Positions 54,175 to 64,000 of a stretch of 64,000 nt of DNA are shown here, piece after piece. The stretch lies in the NCBI RefSeq assembly GCF_003048255.1, contig NZ_CP028487.1:4836001-4900000 (forward strand), in the 5' to 3' direction. The notes under the pieces are model-generated. The model saw only the letters and a list, made by a program, of their open reading frames with translations, ran no database searches and was not told where the DNA came from. Position 1 is the stretch's first letter. The number at the start of each line of letters is the position of its first letter. Made by a program: the position numbers and the translations under genes. This DNA comes from Yersinia massiliensis (GTDB lineage Bacteria; Pseudomonadota; Gammaproteobacteria; Enterobacterales; Enterobacteriaceae).

Positions 54175-56256
54175 ATGAAAGGCCGCCTGTTGGACGCCGT
54201 CCCCCTGAGTACACTTTCTGGTGTGGGTGCCAGTCAGGCTGGGAAACTGGCCAAAATGGGCCTCGAAACCATTCAAGATTTATTGCTTCACCTTCCACTG
54301 CGTTATGAAGACCGTACTCGTCTATACCGTATTGGTGATCTTTTACCCGGTCTTTCTGTCACCGTAGAAGGTGAAGTTCTGCGCTCTGACATCAGTTTTG
54401 GTCGACGCCGTATGATGACCTGCCAAATCAGCGATGGTAGCGGCGTTTTGACCCTGCGCTTTTTTAACTTCAATGCCGCCATGAAAAATAGCCTGTCACC
54501 GGGCAAGCATGTTATTGCCTATGGCGAAGCCAAGCGGGGCAATACGGGGCCAGAAATCATTCATCCTGAATATCGGGTGCATGGCGAAAATATTGGCGTT
54601 GAATTGCAAGAATCCCTGACACCTGTTTATCCCACCACAGAAGGGATTCGTCAGGCAACACTGCGCAAGCTAATTGATCAAGCTCTGGCCATGTTGGATA
54701 CCTGCGTCATTGCTGAGTTATTACCGATAGAATTAAGTCGCTCGCTGATTAGCCTGCCTGAAGCTATTCATACATTGCATCGCCCACCCGCTGATATCCA
54801 ACTGATTGACTTAGAGCAAGGGAAACATCCTGCACAGCGGCGGCTGATTATGGAAGAGTTACTGGCCCATAATCTCAGCATGTTAGCCGTTAGAGCGGGT
54901 GCTCAGAGCTATCGGGCACTGCCTTTGTTGGCAGAAGATGAGCTGAAGCAACGTTTTCTAGCTGCACTACCGTTCACCCCCACGCACGCCCAACAGCGAG
55001 TGGTGGCAGAAATTGAACAGGACATGACGCATAATTTTCCGATGATGCGACTGATTCAAGGGGATGTGGGATCTGGTAAAACATTGGTTGCCGCACTGGC
55101 GGCACTACGTGCTATTGCTCATGGCAAACAAGTGGCGTTGATGGCCCCGACCGAATTGCTCGCAGAACAGCATGCCAATACCTTCCGCCAATGGTTAGAA
55201 CCATTAGGTTTGGAGGTGGGCTGGCTCGCTGGGAAGCAAAAAGGCAAAGCGCGACTGGCGCAGCAAGATGCCATAGCCAGTGGTCAGGTTGCAATGGTCG
55301 TTGGCACCCACGCGATGTTTCAGGAACAAGTCCGTTTTTCCGGACTGGCACTGGTCATTATTGATGAGCAACATCGCTTCGGTGTTCATCAACGGCTCGC
55401 GTTATGGGAAAAAGGCGAGGAGCAAGGGTTCCACCCGCATCAGCTCATTATGACGGCCACTCCAATTCCCCGAACGCTCGCCATGACCGCCTACGCGGAT
55501 CTCGATACCTCCGTGATTGATGAACTGCCGCCGGGAAGAACCCCCGTGACAACCGTCGCCATCCCCGATACCCGCCGCAGCGATGTGATTCAACGGGTTA
55601 AAAATGCTTGTCTGGAAGAGGGCCGCCAAGCGTACTGGGTTTGTACCTTGATTGAAGAATCTGAAGTGCTCGAAGCCCAAGCCGCCGAAGTGACGTGTGA
55701 AGAGCTAAAAAATGCCTTGCCGGAGATTAAAGTCGGCTTAGTGCATGGGCGGATGAAAGGCGCCGAAAAACAGGCCGTTATGCTGGCATTTAAGCAGGGT
55801 GAATTGCAGTTATTGGTCGCGACAACCGTGATTGAGGTCGGCGTAGACGTACCGAACGCAAGCTTGATGATCATCGATAACCCTGAACGCTTGGGATTAG
55901 CACAACTGCACCAATTGCGTGGTCGCGTAGGCCGAGGCGCTGTCGCCTCACACTGCGTACTGCTCTACAAAACGCCACTGAGCAAGACTGCCCAAATGCG
56001 TTTGCAAGTATTGCGCGACAGTAACGATGGTTTTGTTATTGCACAACGCGACTTAGAAATCCGTGGCCCTGGCGAATTATTAGGCACTCGGCAGACGGGG
56101 AATGCAGAGTTCAAAGTGGCCGATTTACTGCGTGACCAAGCCATGATCCCCGAAGTGCAGCGCGTCGCTCGTCATCTGCATCAGCAATACCCCGAACATG
56201 CTCGCGCATTAATTGAGCGTTGGTTACCCGAGCGAACGCGCTATACGAACGCATAA
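54175..56256 (+). CDS. recG: ATP-dependent DNA helicase RecG
   Basis: RecG remodels stalled replication forks and Holliday junctions. The 693-residue protein has the N-terminal wedge/OB domain (about 1-230) and two helicase domains: Walker A GDVGSGKT, DEQH box VIIDEQHRFGVHQR, motif III TATPIPRTLAM, and C-terminal QLRGRVGRG. It converges with gltS across an 80-base gap. Confidence 0.97.
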   Translation: MKGRLLDAVPLSTLSGVGASQAGKLAKMGLETIQDLLLHLPLRYEDRTRLYRIGDLLPGLSVTVEGEVLRSDISFGRRRMMTCQISDGSGVLTLRFFNFNAAMKNSLSPGKHVIAYGEAKRGNTGPEIIHPEYRVHGENIGVELQESLTPVYPTTEGIRQATLRKLIDQALAMLDTCVIAELLPIELSRSLISLPEAIHTLHRPPADIQLIDLEQGKHPAQRRLIMEELLAHNLSMLAVRAGAQSYRALPLLAEDELKQRFLAALPFTPTHAQQRVVAEIEQDMTHNFPMMRLIQGDVGSGKTLVAALAALRAIAHGKQVALMAPTELLAEQHANTFRQWLEPLGLEVGWLAGKQKGKARLAQQDAIASGQVAMVVGTHAMFQEQVRFSGLALVIIDEQHRFGVHQRLALWEKGEEQGFHPHQLIMTATPIPRTLAMTAYADLDTSVIDELPPGRTPVTTVAIPDTRRSDVIQRVKNACLEEGRQAYWVCTLIEESEVLEAQAAEVTCEELKNALPEIKVGLVHGRMKGAEKQAVMLAFKQGELQLLVATTVIEVGVDVPNASLMIIDNPERLGLAQLHQLRGRVGRGAVASHCVLLYKTPLSKTAQMRLQVLRDSNDGFVIAQRDLEIRGPGELLGTRQTGNAEFKVADLLRDQAMIPEVQRVARHLHQQYPEHARALIERWLPERTRYTNA

Positions 56257-61112: not shown

Positions 61113-61150
61113 AACCGATAAACAACCCAGATAGACTTTGTTTATCGGTT
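61113..61150 (+). terminator. Hairpin after yicH
   Basis: Perfect 11-base arms aaccgataaac and gtttatcggtt are followed by gactgttttac on the plus strand. It probably ends yicH; it also lies 40 bases beyond the stop of the converging gene at 61191. Confidence 0.6.
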
Positions 61151-61190: not shown

Positions 61191-61847
61191 CTAGCTAATA
61201 GTTAACCATAAACCAGCAAACTCATAGCCACTCTCTTGCTTAAATTTATCTACGGTTGGATCACCCCAATCGTTATCACGAATGCCGGTGCCGGGATCGT
61301 AATACAACCCATCGGAATCACGTGCCAGTATATGAAGCGCGTGTGGGCCAGAAGTCACACAAATCAATTGCACTTCCCCAGCGTTAGGCGCGGCGTAATT
61401 GGCATTCGTGTGAACATGTTCTGGGCCAACAACATCCACACACGCAGCCTGTTCATCAGGATACGCCTCCCCTAAAACAATTAACCCTTCAGTGGTGATA
61501 TTCACCGATACTGCACGATGGAAATCCATCGCAACTGCGGCCATTGCTGCCGGTGAATTGTATCCTCCACCTGCCACGTTTGGCCCTCCAGCGGGGTTAA
61601 GTATGCCTGTTAGACCATAGATTTTGCTCTTAGCCGTAACAAAATCATCACCTTGGGTAATCACATTCGTATTGTCCTTATAGATAATGATGGTACTTTC
61701 CGGCCAAGGCGCAAAGGCAGCCAATGTGGCAGTGAGTGCATAAGCACCGCATTCATTACTGGCCGGTGGTTGCGTCAATTGGTTAACAGGGTTTGGGTGT
61801 TGGCCTAACAGTAGATTCAGTGGAATGCTGGTTGTCAGATTCGGCAT
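61191..61847 (-). CDS. Unfamiliar protein with papain-like cysteine-peptidase signature
   Basis: I do not recognise this 218-residue protein as a named family. It has no signal peptide or membrane span. A Cys in SNECGAYAL (C33), histidines in PHALHILARD (H169, H172) and an Asp in GLYYDPGTG (D184) are arranged like the Cys-His-Asp triad of papain-like peptidases, including the 15-residue His-Asp spacing seen in C58/YopT-type enzymes. The middle is glycine- and alanine-rich. It starts five bases after GGAGG, 89 bases downstream of the next gene on the same strand, and probably shares its sigma-54 promoter. The function is unknown; peptidase activity is inference. Confidence 0.68.
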   Translation of the reverse strand: MPNLTTSIPLNLLLGQHPNPVNQLTQPPASNECGAYALTATLAAFAPWPESTIIIYKDNTNVITQGDDFVTAKSKIYGLTGILNPAGGPNVAGGGYNSPAAMAAVAMDFHRAVSVNITTEGLIVLGEAYPDEQAACVDVVGPEHVHTNANYAAPNAGEVQLICVTSGPHALHILARDSDGLYYDPGTGIRDNDWGDPTVDKFKQESGYEFAGLWLTIS

Positions 61848-61936
61848 ATAGCCTCCTAATAGAAATCGTAAAATTCAACATAAGTGGTCATACAGGAACG
61901 GCGCAGTTGATCAGGCTGGCCGTCTTCAGAGAAGCA

Positions 61937-62617
61937 TTAAGACGCTGCAGTGACCGTCCATGTACCTTGAGGGTTATAGGTCACGTTAAAGGCGGTGATG
62001 CCTTGCGTGGTATCGCAAATTGCAGAACCGACGGATGAAGTGGAGAAATTAATCACCGTCCCCGGCTGGTAAGTCCCTGTTTGGACGTAGAAACTCAGCA
62101 CCGGTTGGCAATCGATATTTTTGCTCGGCTCAGCATTGATAAAGCTAGATAGGACCGTGCCACCACTGGCGCTTTGCACTGCTAACCCTGCATTCAACAC
62201 TTCAGTGATCGGGTTGAACGCAGGCGTGATAATGCGATAAGCACCGGGTTGTACGCCTTCGGTATAGCTGGCAGGTGACAAACCAAGCGAAGGGTCCACT
62301 GAAAGTAGTGTGGTGTTTGCGGTTTGTACCCCCGCCGTCGCAGAGGTTAAATCGATAGGTTGGCTAGAGGTGATGTAGCCAGAGTCTTGCCCGACCGACA
62401 GATTCGGTAACTGAGTTTGAGCACCAGCATAGAATTGCATTAAGCATTCAAAGGTCAGCACAGAACCTGAGCTAGCGAACGGCTGCAACACTTCTTGGTA
62501 GATACTGTTGGAGTAGACTTTAGCGCCACCGGTATAAATTGCCGGTTTTTGGAAGAAGAAGAAATCCTGCGCTGTTGGGCTGTTATTGATTACGTTGATT
62601 GTATATAGAGTACTCAT
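61937..62617 (-). CDS. Unknown beta-rich protein in sigma-54 operon
   Basis: This 226-residue protein is not one I can name. It opens with MSTLYTINVINNSPTAQDFF, has no signal peptide, and is rich in Ser, Thr, Gln and short hydrophobic strands, suggesting a beta-sandwich. A run of four phenylalanines (DFFFFQKP) near residue 18 and YTGGAKVYSN stand out. There are two late cysteines (IDCQP, AICDT). AAGGA lies seven bases before the ATG. A near-perfect sigma-54 promoter lies about 75 bases upstream. It could be a secreted or structural partner of the peptidase-like protein encoded downstream. Confidence 0.7.
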   Translation of the reverse strand: MSTLYTINVINNSPTAQDFFFFQKPAIYTGGAKVYSNSIYQEVLQPFASSGSVLTFECLMQFYAGAQTQLPNLSVGQDSGYITSSQPIDLTSATAGVQTANTTLLSVDPSLGLSPASYTEGVQPGAYRIITPAFNPITEVLNAGLAVQSASGGTVLSSFINAEPSKNIDCQPVLSFYVQTGTYQPGTVINFSTSSVGSAICDTTQGITAFNVTYNPQGTWTVTAAS

Positions 62618-62689
62618 ATTGTATTCCTTATGTATTTAGAGGGAGACATCATGAGGTAGCTCGTTTATTTCGCTACCCACAGTACAAAT

Positions 62690-62706
62690 TGCAACCGGCG
62701 TGCCAA
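62690..62706 (-). promoter_or_regulatory. Sigma-54 (RpoN) promoter
   Basis: The minus strand reads TTGGCACGCCGGTTGCA, matching 16 of 17 positions of YTGGCACGRNNNTTGCW. The GG and GC dinucleotides are exactly ten bases apart. Transcription would start near 62679, giving a leader of about 60 bases before the ATG at 62617. Confidence 0.82.
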
Positions 62707-62711
62707 CCAAT

Positions 62712-62724
62712 TAACACATTGATT
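62712..62724 (-). promoter_or_regulatory. IHF-type site next to the sigma-54 promoter
   Basis: AATCAATGTGTTA on the minus strand matches every position of WATCAANNNNTTR. It lies directly upstream of the -24 element, within an AT-rich tract, where bending would bring an upstream activator to the polymerase. Confidence 0.55.
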
Positions 62725-62768
62725 TTCAATCATTAATTAATTAATCAAGTGTAGAAAAACCCATAAAG

Positions 62769-62784
62769 TGGACGATTCTGTCCA
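62769..62784. promoter_or_regulatory. Inverted repeat, candidate upstream activator site
   Basis: tggac-gattct-gtcca has perfect 5-base arms and lies about 90-105 bases before the predicted start of transcription, the usual place for an enhancer-binding protein. The cognate activator is not known. Confidence 0.45.
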
Positions 62785-62832
62785 AGGAAAAAAGAAGATT
62801 GGCCGAAAACGACCACGAAGGCTGATGCCTAT

Positions 62833-64000
62833 TTAATTCGGTTGATCTAACTCGGCTAATAATTGAGTGGCTCGGCTGACAATGGGTGGGCCCCCTTGAG
62901 AATCAATGCTTTTCAGGATGCTGGACAGCAAGGTAATGGCTTCCGGCTTTCGCTGTGTTTGCGCTAATAAGCTGGCCAACTCATGAGTTGCGGCGATTTG
63001 AGCGGGCACAATACCCAATGCCTGCGCGGTCGCGATGGCGCAACGGAACCCTTGTTCAGCGCCGGTGGCATCACTTAATGCCCATCTGGCGCGAGCTTGG
63101 ATAATCATCAGCTCACTGAGATAAGCACGCTCTTGGTGTTTGAACGCCAAATCTAACGCCTGAGATATCAAGATGTCGCACTGTTGTGGCTGACCGGAGA
63201 GGAGTAATAGTTCGCCACGTTTCCATGCGTGGAAGGAGTGAAAGAGCTTCCCGCCCTCGCTGAATAGATGGGTATCAAAACCGTCGATCATATATTGTTC
63301 TGCTTGCACATAATCATGCTGCATCAGCAGATAACACCCTTTTAATACCTTCCCCAGTCCCTGATAAAAAGCAAAGCCATATTGCTGTGTCTGTATTTCT
63401 AATGCGTGGGTTAAGGGTCCTAAACGACCCCTGTCTTCGAATAAACAGGCCAGCCATGCTGCCCCTCGTAGAGAGATAACACGATGAAAAACAATTAACG
63501 TCTCATCATGACCTCGTAATTCCAGTTTTTTGGCTATCTCTTTGGCTCGCTTAAACTTACCCCGTTGAAATGATGCCAACCCTTCTAACGTTAGTGCCAT
63601 GCCGAATAAATCCAAGCCTTGTTGGTCGGTATATTCAGCGGAAGAATTGAGTAATTTGCTACGAGCCAAGCAGGTCAAGACCTCCTGATTATCGCCAAGC
63701 CAAAACAGGGTACTGGCTAATGCGATATGCGCTTCACCCCATATCAATGCTGTTTTTTCTGTTTGCCCGTGTTGCAACAACTCCTGGGCCAGAGTACGCA
63801 CATGAGGTAATTCCAGCGCCATTAGCTGCGCTGACCAACGCCAAAAAAACAGCCCCGCCAGCTCGGATTCATCACCCGTTTTTTTTCCCAATGAAATGGC
63901 ATCGTTATGATATTTCAGCGCATCATGACTTAACCAACCATGCAATATTTGATAGCTGAGGCTCAGTTGACGATAGAGGTTGTAATGTAGCTGCCGAACT
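62833..64000 (-). CDS. C-terminal part of a large TPR-containing protein
   Basis: The frame is open to the window end, so only the last 389 residues are seen. They are helical with repeated TPR-like units (for example AEGLASFQRGKFKRAKEIAKKL-type alternation and WALSDATGAEQGFRCAIATAQALG-type pairs, each split here into short matches). The pattern resembles the C-terminal TPR half of large ATPase or adenylate-cyclase-like regulators, but no N-terminal domain is visible to decide. It is encoded upstream of and on the same strand as the sigma-54 operon, separated by 215 bases that carry that promoter. Confidence 0.7.
   Translation of the reverse strand, partial: VRQLHYNLYRQLSLSYQILHGWLSHDALKYHNDAISLGKKTGDESELAGLFFWRWSAQLMALELPHVRTLAQELLQHGQTEKTALIWGEAHIALASTLFWLGDNQEVLTCLARSKLLNSSAEYTDQQGLDLFGMALTLEGLASFQRGKFKRAKEIAKKLELRGHDETLIVFHRVISLRGAAWLACLFEDRGRLGPLTHALEIQTQQYGFAFYQGLGKVLKGCYLLMQHDYVQAEQYMIDGFDTHLFSEGGKLFHSFHAWKRGELLLLSGQPQQCDILISQALDLAFKHQERAYLSELMIIQARARWALSDATGAEQGFRCAIATAQALGIVPAQIAATHELASLLAQTQRKPEAITLLSSILKSIDSQGGPPIVSRATQLLAELDQPN

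Follow-up and report, generated by a model that had tools for sequence, protein, structure and literature searches.

A 64,000-nucleotide stretch of Yersinia massiliensis DNA (contig NZ_CP028487.1, positions 4,836,001 to 4,900,000 of the forward strand; hereafter the window) ends with two genes, here called B and A, that follow the gene of a sigma-54 activator. Judged from sequence, the three genes probably form a self-contained regulatory unit, which is carried by some Yersinia species. Both of the smaller open reading frames (ORFs) had been described in a first-pass annotation made from the letters alone, and both were found as described. In the minus-strand reading direction gene B precedes gene A, with 89 bases between them in the ORF list, and B is 100% identical to a gene in the record of Y. 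massiliensis CCUG 53443. The components of the unit, in the order in which they are read, are as follows.

62833..64000, minus strand: sigma-54 activator gene, its C-terminal, tetratricopeptide repeat (TPR)-like part; the complete gene (767 amino acids, L002:4834-7137, minus strand) runs past the window edge
62800..62815, minus strand: putative upstream activator dyad 1, centred at about −128 and 31 bp from dyad 2
62769..62784, minus strand: putative upstream activator dyad 2, TGGACAGAATCGTCCA, centred at about −97
62712..62724, minus strand: integration host factor (IHF) site, AATCAATGTGTTA, matching what we take to be the consensus, WATCAANNNNTTR
62690..62705, minus strand: −24/−12 sigma-54 promoter element, TGGCACGCCGGTTGCA, matching the consensus pattern exactly
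near 62679, minus strand: predicted transcription start, counted from the −12 C by what we take to be the usual convention
61937..62617, minus strand: gene B, 226 amino acids, predicted all-beta protein and, by profile comparison, distant member of the RhiA superfamily
61191..61847, minus strand: gene A, 218 amino acids, predicted papain-like cysteine peptidase (Q26, C33, H172, D184)

A search of 25 Yersinia genomes, including that of the window, found A in seven, and the same seven held B (84–100% identity) and the C-terminal part of the activator. The activator, B and A are adjacent in all seven, and the order of B and A is invariant, with less than 100 bp separating them. The identity of A to the window's copy is 80% in genome G405 and 71–78% in the other five genomes. 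Because the window genome and G405 are very close, the number of independent cases is nearer six. Between these two genomes (G405 being represented by L086), B is 100% and the activator part 98% identical while A is only 80% identical, which may be explained by allele exchange or by fast change at A alone. Two further Yersinia genomes, both without the operon, contain only a remote B-like protein of 329 amino acids with 27–29% identity (L120:5673-6662 and L121:5922-6911). A simple phage origin was considered and rejected: a search of phage records with B, and not with A, gave no match; PHROGs returned nothing for either protein; and A could not be traced to any confirmed viral contig.

Every control element is present in all seven genomes that contain the operon, while the flanking sequence varies. 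Start-to-start spacings, obtained by subtraction of element offsets, are 78 bp from dyad 2 to the promoter element in all seven genomes, 31 bp (five genomes) or 32 bp (two) between the dyads, and 18 bp (six) or 14 bp (one) from the IHF site to the promoter element. The IHF pattern was found in 0.45% of letter-shuffled stretches of this size. The near-perfect −24/−12 element, the consensus IHF site and the upstream inverted repeat (dyad 2) that had been proposed in the first-pass annotation are all part of this conserved set; dyad 1 and the sigma-54 activator of the next gene had not been noticed there. A lone −24/−12 match or a lone dyad in 64 kb is weak evidence. When one mismatch was allowed, 21 of 100 shuffles of the 64 kb contained at least as many −24/−12 matches and 13 of 100 at least as many dyad matches. 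A loose dyad pattern occurred 75 times genome-wide on both strands (77 times for the backward control). The elements are beyond chance as a set, because all are kept in seven genomes, with dyad 2 at a fixed distance. Of the 56 sites on contig C1, dyads 1 and 2 alone lie close together, other neighbouring sites being at least 4816 bp apart, which suggests, but does not prove, a regulon of one promoter. Dyad 1 was also listed as terminator-like by a scan, an assignment that was rejected, as 2.0 such sites are expected and the dyad is conserved in register with dyad 2. The reading of the locus as a sigma-54 operon, already made in the first-pass annotation, is supported by the conservation of the promoter element and two dyads and by the adjacent gene for an activator with a PF00158 domain, whose binding to the dyads is predicted. 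A general sigma-54 rule for B genes was rejected: sites scoring at least 18 occur in 7 of 93 B upstream regions and in 5 of 1239 others, the seven comprising five from Yersinia (three of them the same own-genome copy) and two from related Bradyrhizobium. In the latter (L022 and L025), the sigma-54-like site is located ∼160 bases upstream of B.

The activator comprises a PF00158 sigma-54 interaction domain (residues 27–193, E 1.2e-62), an AAA+ lid and a Fis-type helix-turn-helix (residues 294–331), and no N-terminal receiver, sensor or other regulatory domain was seen. Typical NtrC-type activators possess an N-terminal receiver or other domain, whereas in the Yersinia protein none is seen and a TPR-like region is located at the C-terminus. 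As this sigma-54 activator is encoded directly upstream, the B–A pair comes with its own probable activator. The C-terminal half of the protein has relatives with 42–44% identity, nearly full length, in six Burkholderiales plasmid records, and the nearest NtrC-type relatives are proteins of Caballeronia sp. NK8 and Paraburkholderia annotated 'sigma-54 dependent transcriptional regulator'. Four of these activator loci were scanned (L156:6894-9313, L157, L158 and L159). In Caballeronia, a dyad that is letter-identical to the Y. aleksiciae dyad lies 3 bp past the activator gene and ∼100 bp before a sigma-54-like site. Two loci from Paraburkholderia have an equally scoring sigma-54-like site after the activator gene; one of them has one degenerate 16-bp dyad 100 bp before this site, and the other only partial dyads, as judged by eye. 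The P. phymatum locus has a dyad at a distance of ∼2 kb, and a scan of 0.9 kb revealed no promoter site with a comparable score. At none of the four loci was A or B recognised next to the activator. The retention of the dyad near relatives of the activator therefore supports the view that the dyad is the operator of the activator, with the clearest case in Caballeronia.

In the alignment of the A family, Q26 is conserved in 66 of 66 sequences, C33 in 65, and H172 and D184 in 64 each, in the order Gln-Cys-His-Asp; the exceptions at H172 and D184 are two short proteins (148 and 114 amino acids). The Cys-His-Asp set named in the first-pass annotation therefore stands for C33, H172 and D184, while H169, which is conserved in 3 of the 66 sequences, is rejected as a catalytic residue. 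Comparison of the predicted structure places A in the papain fold class. Together with the conservation of the site, this supports the earlier proposal of a papain-like peptidase, and the predicted product of A is a papain-like cysteine peptidase of the cytoplasm whose Gln-Cys-His-Asp site is complete. Most relatives of A bear the precomputed label PF25855, and some are named 'Peptidase C39-like domain-containing protein' in UniRef. Despite these names, membership of peptidase family C39 was rejected on Pfam, in which A matched neither the C39 profile nor any other family at E ≤ 1 or 10, and three homologues with the UniRef name (P0004, P0007 and P0159) likewise matched no Pfam family, C39 included. 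No ABC exporter was recognised among the neighbours of A, which were read by eye. Among known systems, the closest to A are the C39 peptidase domains of PCAT1 and ComA and the staphopains, which are papain-like cysteine peptidases; A differs in being a stand-alone protein of 218 residues without an ABC transporter and in forming a family of its own (PF25855 label). No signal peptide is visible by eye in A or B, in agreement with the first-pass annotation, no predictor having been run. The codon adaptation of A is 0.586, 11th among the 45 window ORFs of at least 150 amino acids (median 0.540).

RhiA, a protein of root bacteria, has been known for decades. Profile comparison aligned B with RhiA over its full length at ∼19% identity; an earlier attempt with three RhiA sequences gave a weaker result (probability 70.7, E 3.8e-5). 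By this comparison B belongs to a broad RhiA-like superfamily, and it is predicted to be a soluble, cytoplasmic all-beta protein. The description of A and B as genes of unknown family was thus half right, given the PF25855 and C39-like labels of A relatives and the superfamily membership of B. The FFFF run noted in this beta-rich protein is present, and the family alignment at this position mostly reads F-[FY]-F-F-Q. A B gene lies next to a RhiA homologue in Pseudomonas sp. MF4836. B resembles RhiA of Rhizobium leguminosarum, the product of the rhizosphere-expressed rhiABC, in size (226 and 231 amino acids, respectively) and in having no signal peptide visible by eye. However, B is adjoined by a sigma-54 activator gene and rhiABC by LuxR/LuxI-type genes, and the partner of B is the predicted peptidase, whereas those of RhiA are RhiB (annotated as a tail fiber protein) and RhiC. 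No RhiB or RhiC partner and no LuxR/LuxI-type gene was recognised by eye in the Yersinia unit, which does not qualify as a rhiABC orthologue. Excerpts of a 2008 report describe RhiA as a cytoplasmic protein, small and highly expressed, whose function is unknown and which was not detected in supernatants (PMC2275737). In extracts from a review, it is among the most abundant rhizosphere proteins, and its operon is under RhiR and perhaps tied to the use of plant metabolites (PMC5793154), while a passage of a 2026 paper assigns no Pfam domain to RhiA and RhiC and a tail-collar domain to RhiB (PMC13133039). Tandem B genes are found on pRL10 of Rhizobium johnstonii 3841 (L080:6079-11337), between fixA/fixB-like and nifA genes on one side and ccoNOQP on the other, a possible link of the RhiA-like family to symbiosis. 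Another B homologue, in the one record viewed of 29 from Serratia, is carried by a conjugative plasmid of Serratia proteamaculans (L081:10001-10945) near phospholipase D-like and transfer genes.

The explanation that we favour, and consider more likely than not, is that a private sigma-54 activator drives expression of B, a RhiA-like protein, and of A, its partner peptidase. The signal would probably be received by the C-terminal TPR-like region of the activator, hexamers of which would bind the two dyads. IHF would bend the DNA, and hydrolysis of adenosine triphosphate would open the sigma-54 polymerase complex at the −24/−12 element, so that B and then A would be transcribed as one message. 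By analogy with RhiA, B would probably be made in quantity under one social or host-associated condition, and A would act on it or share its target. Functionally, the pair is most likely a cytoplasmic RhiA-like protein and its partner peptidase, produced in one specific condition. What the sequences show are the genes and their joint inheritance, the motifs and promoter layout with their conservation, the domains of the activator, the predicted fold class of A and the relationship of B to RhiA; binding of the activator to the dyads, a single transcript, sensing by the TPR-like region, protein levels, peptidase activity and the roles of A and B are inferred.

Several observations weigh against this explanation. 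Among 398 genomes of the phylum, A was found in four and B in five, with only the window's own in both lists (one of the A matches is partial, and one of the B matches is a 31-residue piece with a stop codon). An A-like ORF was present in the stretch examined at 2 of 73 B loci from species genomes, both of them from Yersinia, and B was not found in four A-bearing genomes and two A-bearing Azospirillum plasmid records in a search that had no positive control. On these sequence samples, A and B belong to families that are otherwise independent and are linked in Yersinia, and the co-occurrence of the two genes, suggested earlier as a check, holds for all seven A-bearing Yersinia genomes and not elsewhere in the samples. 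B genes do not in general have a sigma-54 site, the TPR matches in the long C-terminal part of the activator stay under Pfam's cut-off, and only the Caballeronia locus among the four Burkholderiales loci has a full dyad beside a sigma-54-like site. One homologue of A has Ser in place of C33. Foldseek matched neither protein to a PDB entry below E 0.001. The link of B to RhiA rests on ∼19% identity and the profile result, and when ten loci that bear RhiA were searched with B by tblastn, no match to RhiA was significant (best E 0.29). The codon adaptation of B (0.618, fifth of the 45 window ORFs) is raised, yet it is below that of 24 of 27 S10-region ORFs, and high expression is therefore possible, not proven.

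The invariant order and close spacing of B and A in the seven Yersinia genomes would also suit a peptidase dedicated to the processing of B, which would then be a structural protein that is assembled or matured. We regard this as unlikely, as A-like ORFs are confined to the two Yersinia loci among the 73, so that B does not generally need A beside it, and the A-bearing genomes tested yielded no B in the search described above. It is similarly doubtful that the unit is a metabolic or nutrient-response operon, in which a metabolite would be sensed by the activator, B would serve for binding or storage, and A would be a peptidase or an amidase-type hydrolase engaged in turnover. The C-terminal part of the activator has weak relatives in Vibrio (∼26% identity), mostly annotated as AAA-family ATPases, one of which, when viewed, adjoined DUF917 and Asp/Glu racemase genes, and the review extract gives the rhi operon a possible role in plant-metabolite use (PMC5793154). 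However, no catabolic or transport gene is located between the activator, B and A, and the active-site order and predicted fold of A are those of papain-like peptidases. Coincidental proximity, with the sigma-54 elements belonging to another arrangement and A being a decayed gene, is scarcely credible: single −24/−12 matches are not rare by chance, but all seven genomes retain the elements at their spacing as well as both reading frames, the other six copies being 71–80% (A) and 84–100% (B) identical to those of the window.

The first-pass annotation had suggested an effector, toxin or stress module, which no result establishes and which is one of several possible uses. In one such scheme, A and B would constitute a two-component cytoplasmic weapon released on lysis or on digestion by a grazer (amoeba, ciliate, nematode or insect), with B binding or opening membranes and A acting as a toxic peptidase; we consider it improbable. 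The lack of a visible signal peptide in both proteins would fit this scheme, as would the surroundings of A homologues in Azospirillum. Five plasmid records of this genus contain an A match, and four were viewed. In two, the A-family gene adjoins a RebB R-body cluster (L107:7692-13478 and L154:7719-14752), and in the other two it is located in prophage-like tail or lysis regions (L106:914-9648 and L153:4316-10069), marked by genes for a Mu gp48-like protein and a tail-fibre-like protein or for lysozyme. The homologues in prophage regions are treated as an observation separate from the origin of the Yersinia unit. R bodies are presented in excerpts of a published account as cytoplasmic structures that kill grazing Paramecium, with the toxin still unknown (PMC3583457), and the A-family protein is a possible partner of them. 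B genes occur in distant groups and on plasmids (100 plasmid-collection records, 78 of them conjugative), and A has diverged far more than B or the activator part between the window genome and G405. The case for a weapon gains a little from the R-body neighbours, the prophage-like regions and the divergence of A. It is countered by searches of Pfam, NCBIfam, PADLOC and PHROGs, in which neither A nor B matched a toxin family (an absence that does not exclude a toxin), by the failure to recognise an immunity or secretion gene among the neighbours (read by eye, not all scanned), and by RhiA, the studied relative of B, being described in the 2008 excerpts as cytoplasmic and undetected in the culture supernatant (PMC2275737). 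A wider reading, which we would call a long shot, is that RhiA-like proteins, a widespread superfamily with a fold that so far lacks any close solved structure, form an abundant cytoplasmic stockpile that reaches a eukaryotic grazer or host on digestion of the cell and is held behind a density- or host-sensing switch particular to each bacterium (quorum sensing in rhizobia, the TPR-type sigma-54 activator in Yersinia). Yersinia would have added A as the active arm, and the A-family proteins beside R bodies would be candidates for the missing partner.

Around the unit, a 13-bp perfect inverted repeat (61113..61150, no strand assigned) is located 3′ of A and of a convergent gene that is presumably AsmA-like. 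Its folding z-score is −2.11, with 7 of 200 shuffles folding equally well, and the terminator scan did not list it; it is a possible two-way terminator or barrier. A structured linker between B and A was rejected, as folding compared with shuffles gave no structure signal (z −0.32). In Y. aleksiciae (L004:12161-14993), four tandem genes separate A from the AsmA-like gene, and the one that was scanned encodes PAS and LuxR-type helix-turn-helix domains; the locus varies within the genus. Elsewhere in the window, an Rfam match to the Yersinia small RNA Ysr141 (54995-55249, minus strand) lies antisense inside a long ORF (54175-56256) that we take to be recG.

In summary, the comparison would assign RhiA to a wide superfamily for which a confident fold model is available. 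In Yersinia, a member of this superfamily is tied to a predicted peptidase under an apparently private one-promoter switch, which makes its role testable in a two-gene unit. The unit may also serve as a compact model for the control of a sigma-54 activator that lacks an N-terminal domain and carries a TPR-like region at its C-terminus. The value of the finding lies mainly in the link to RhiA and in this compact, apparently private switch.
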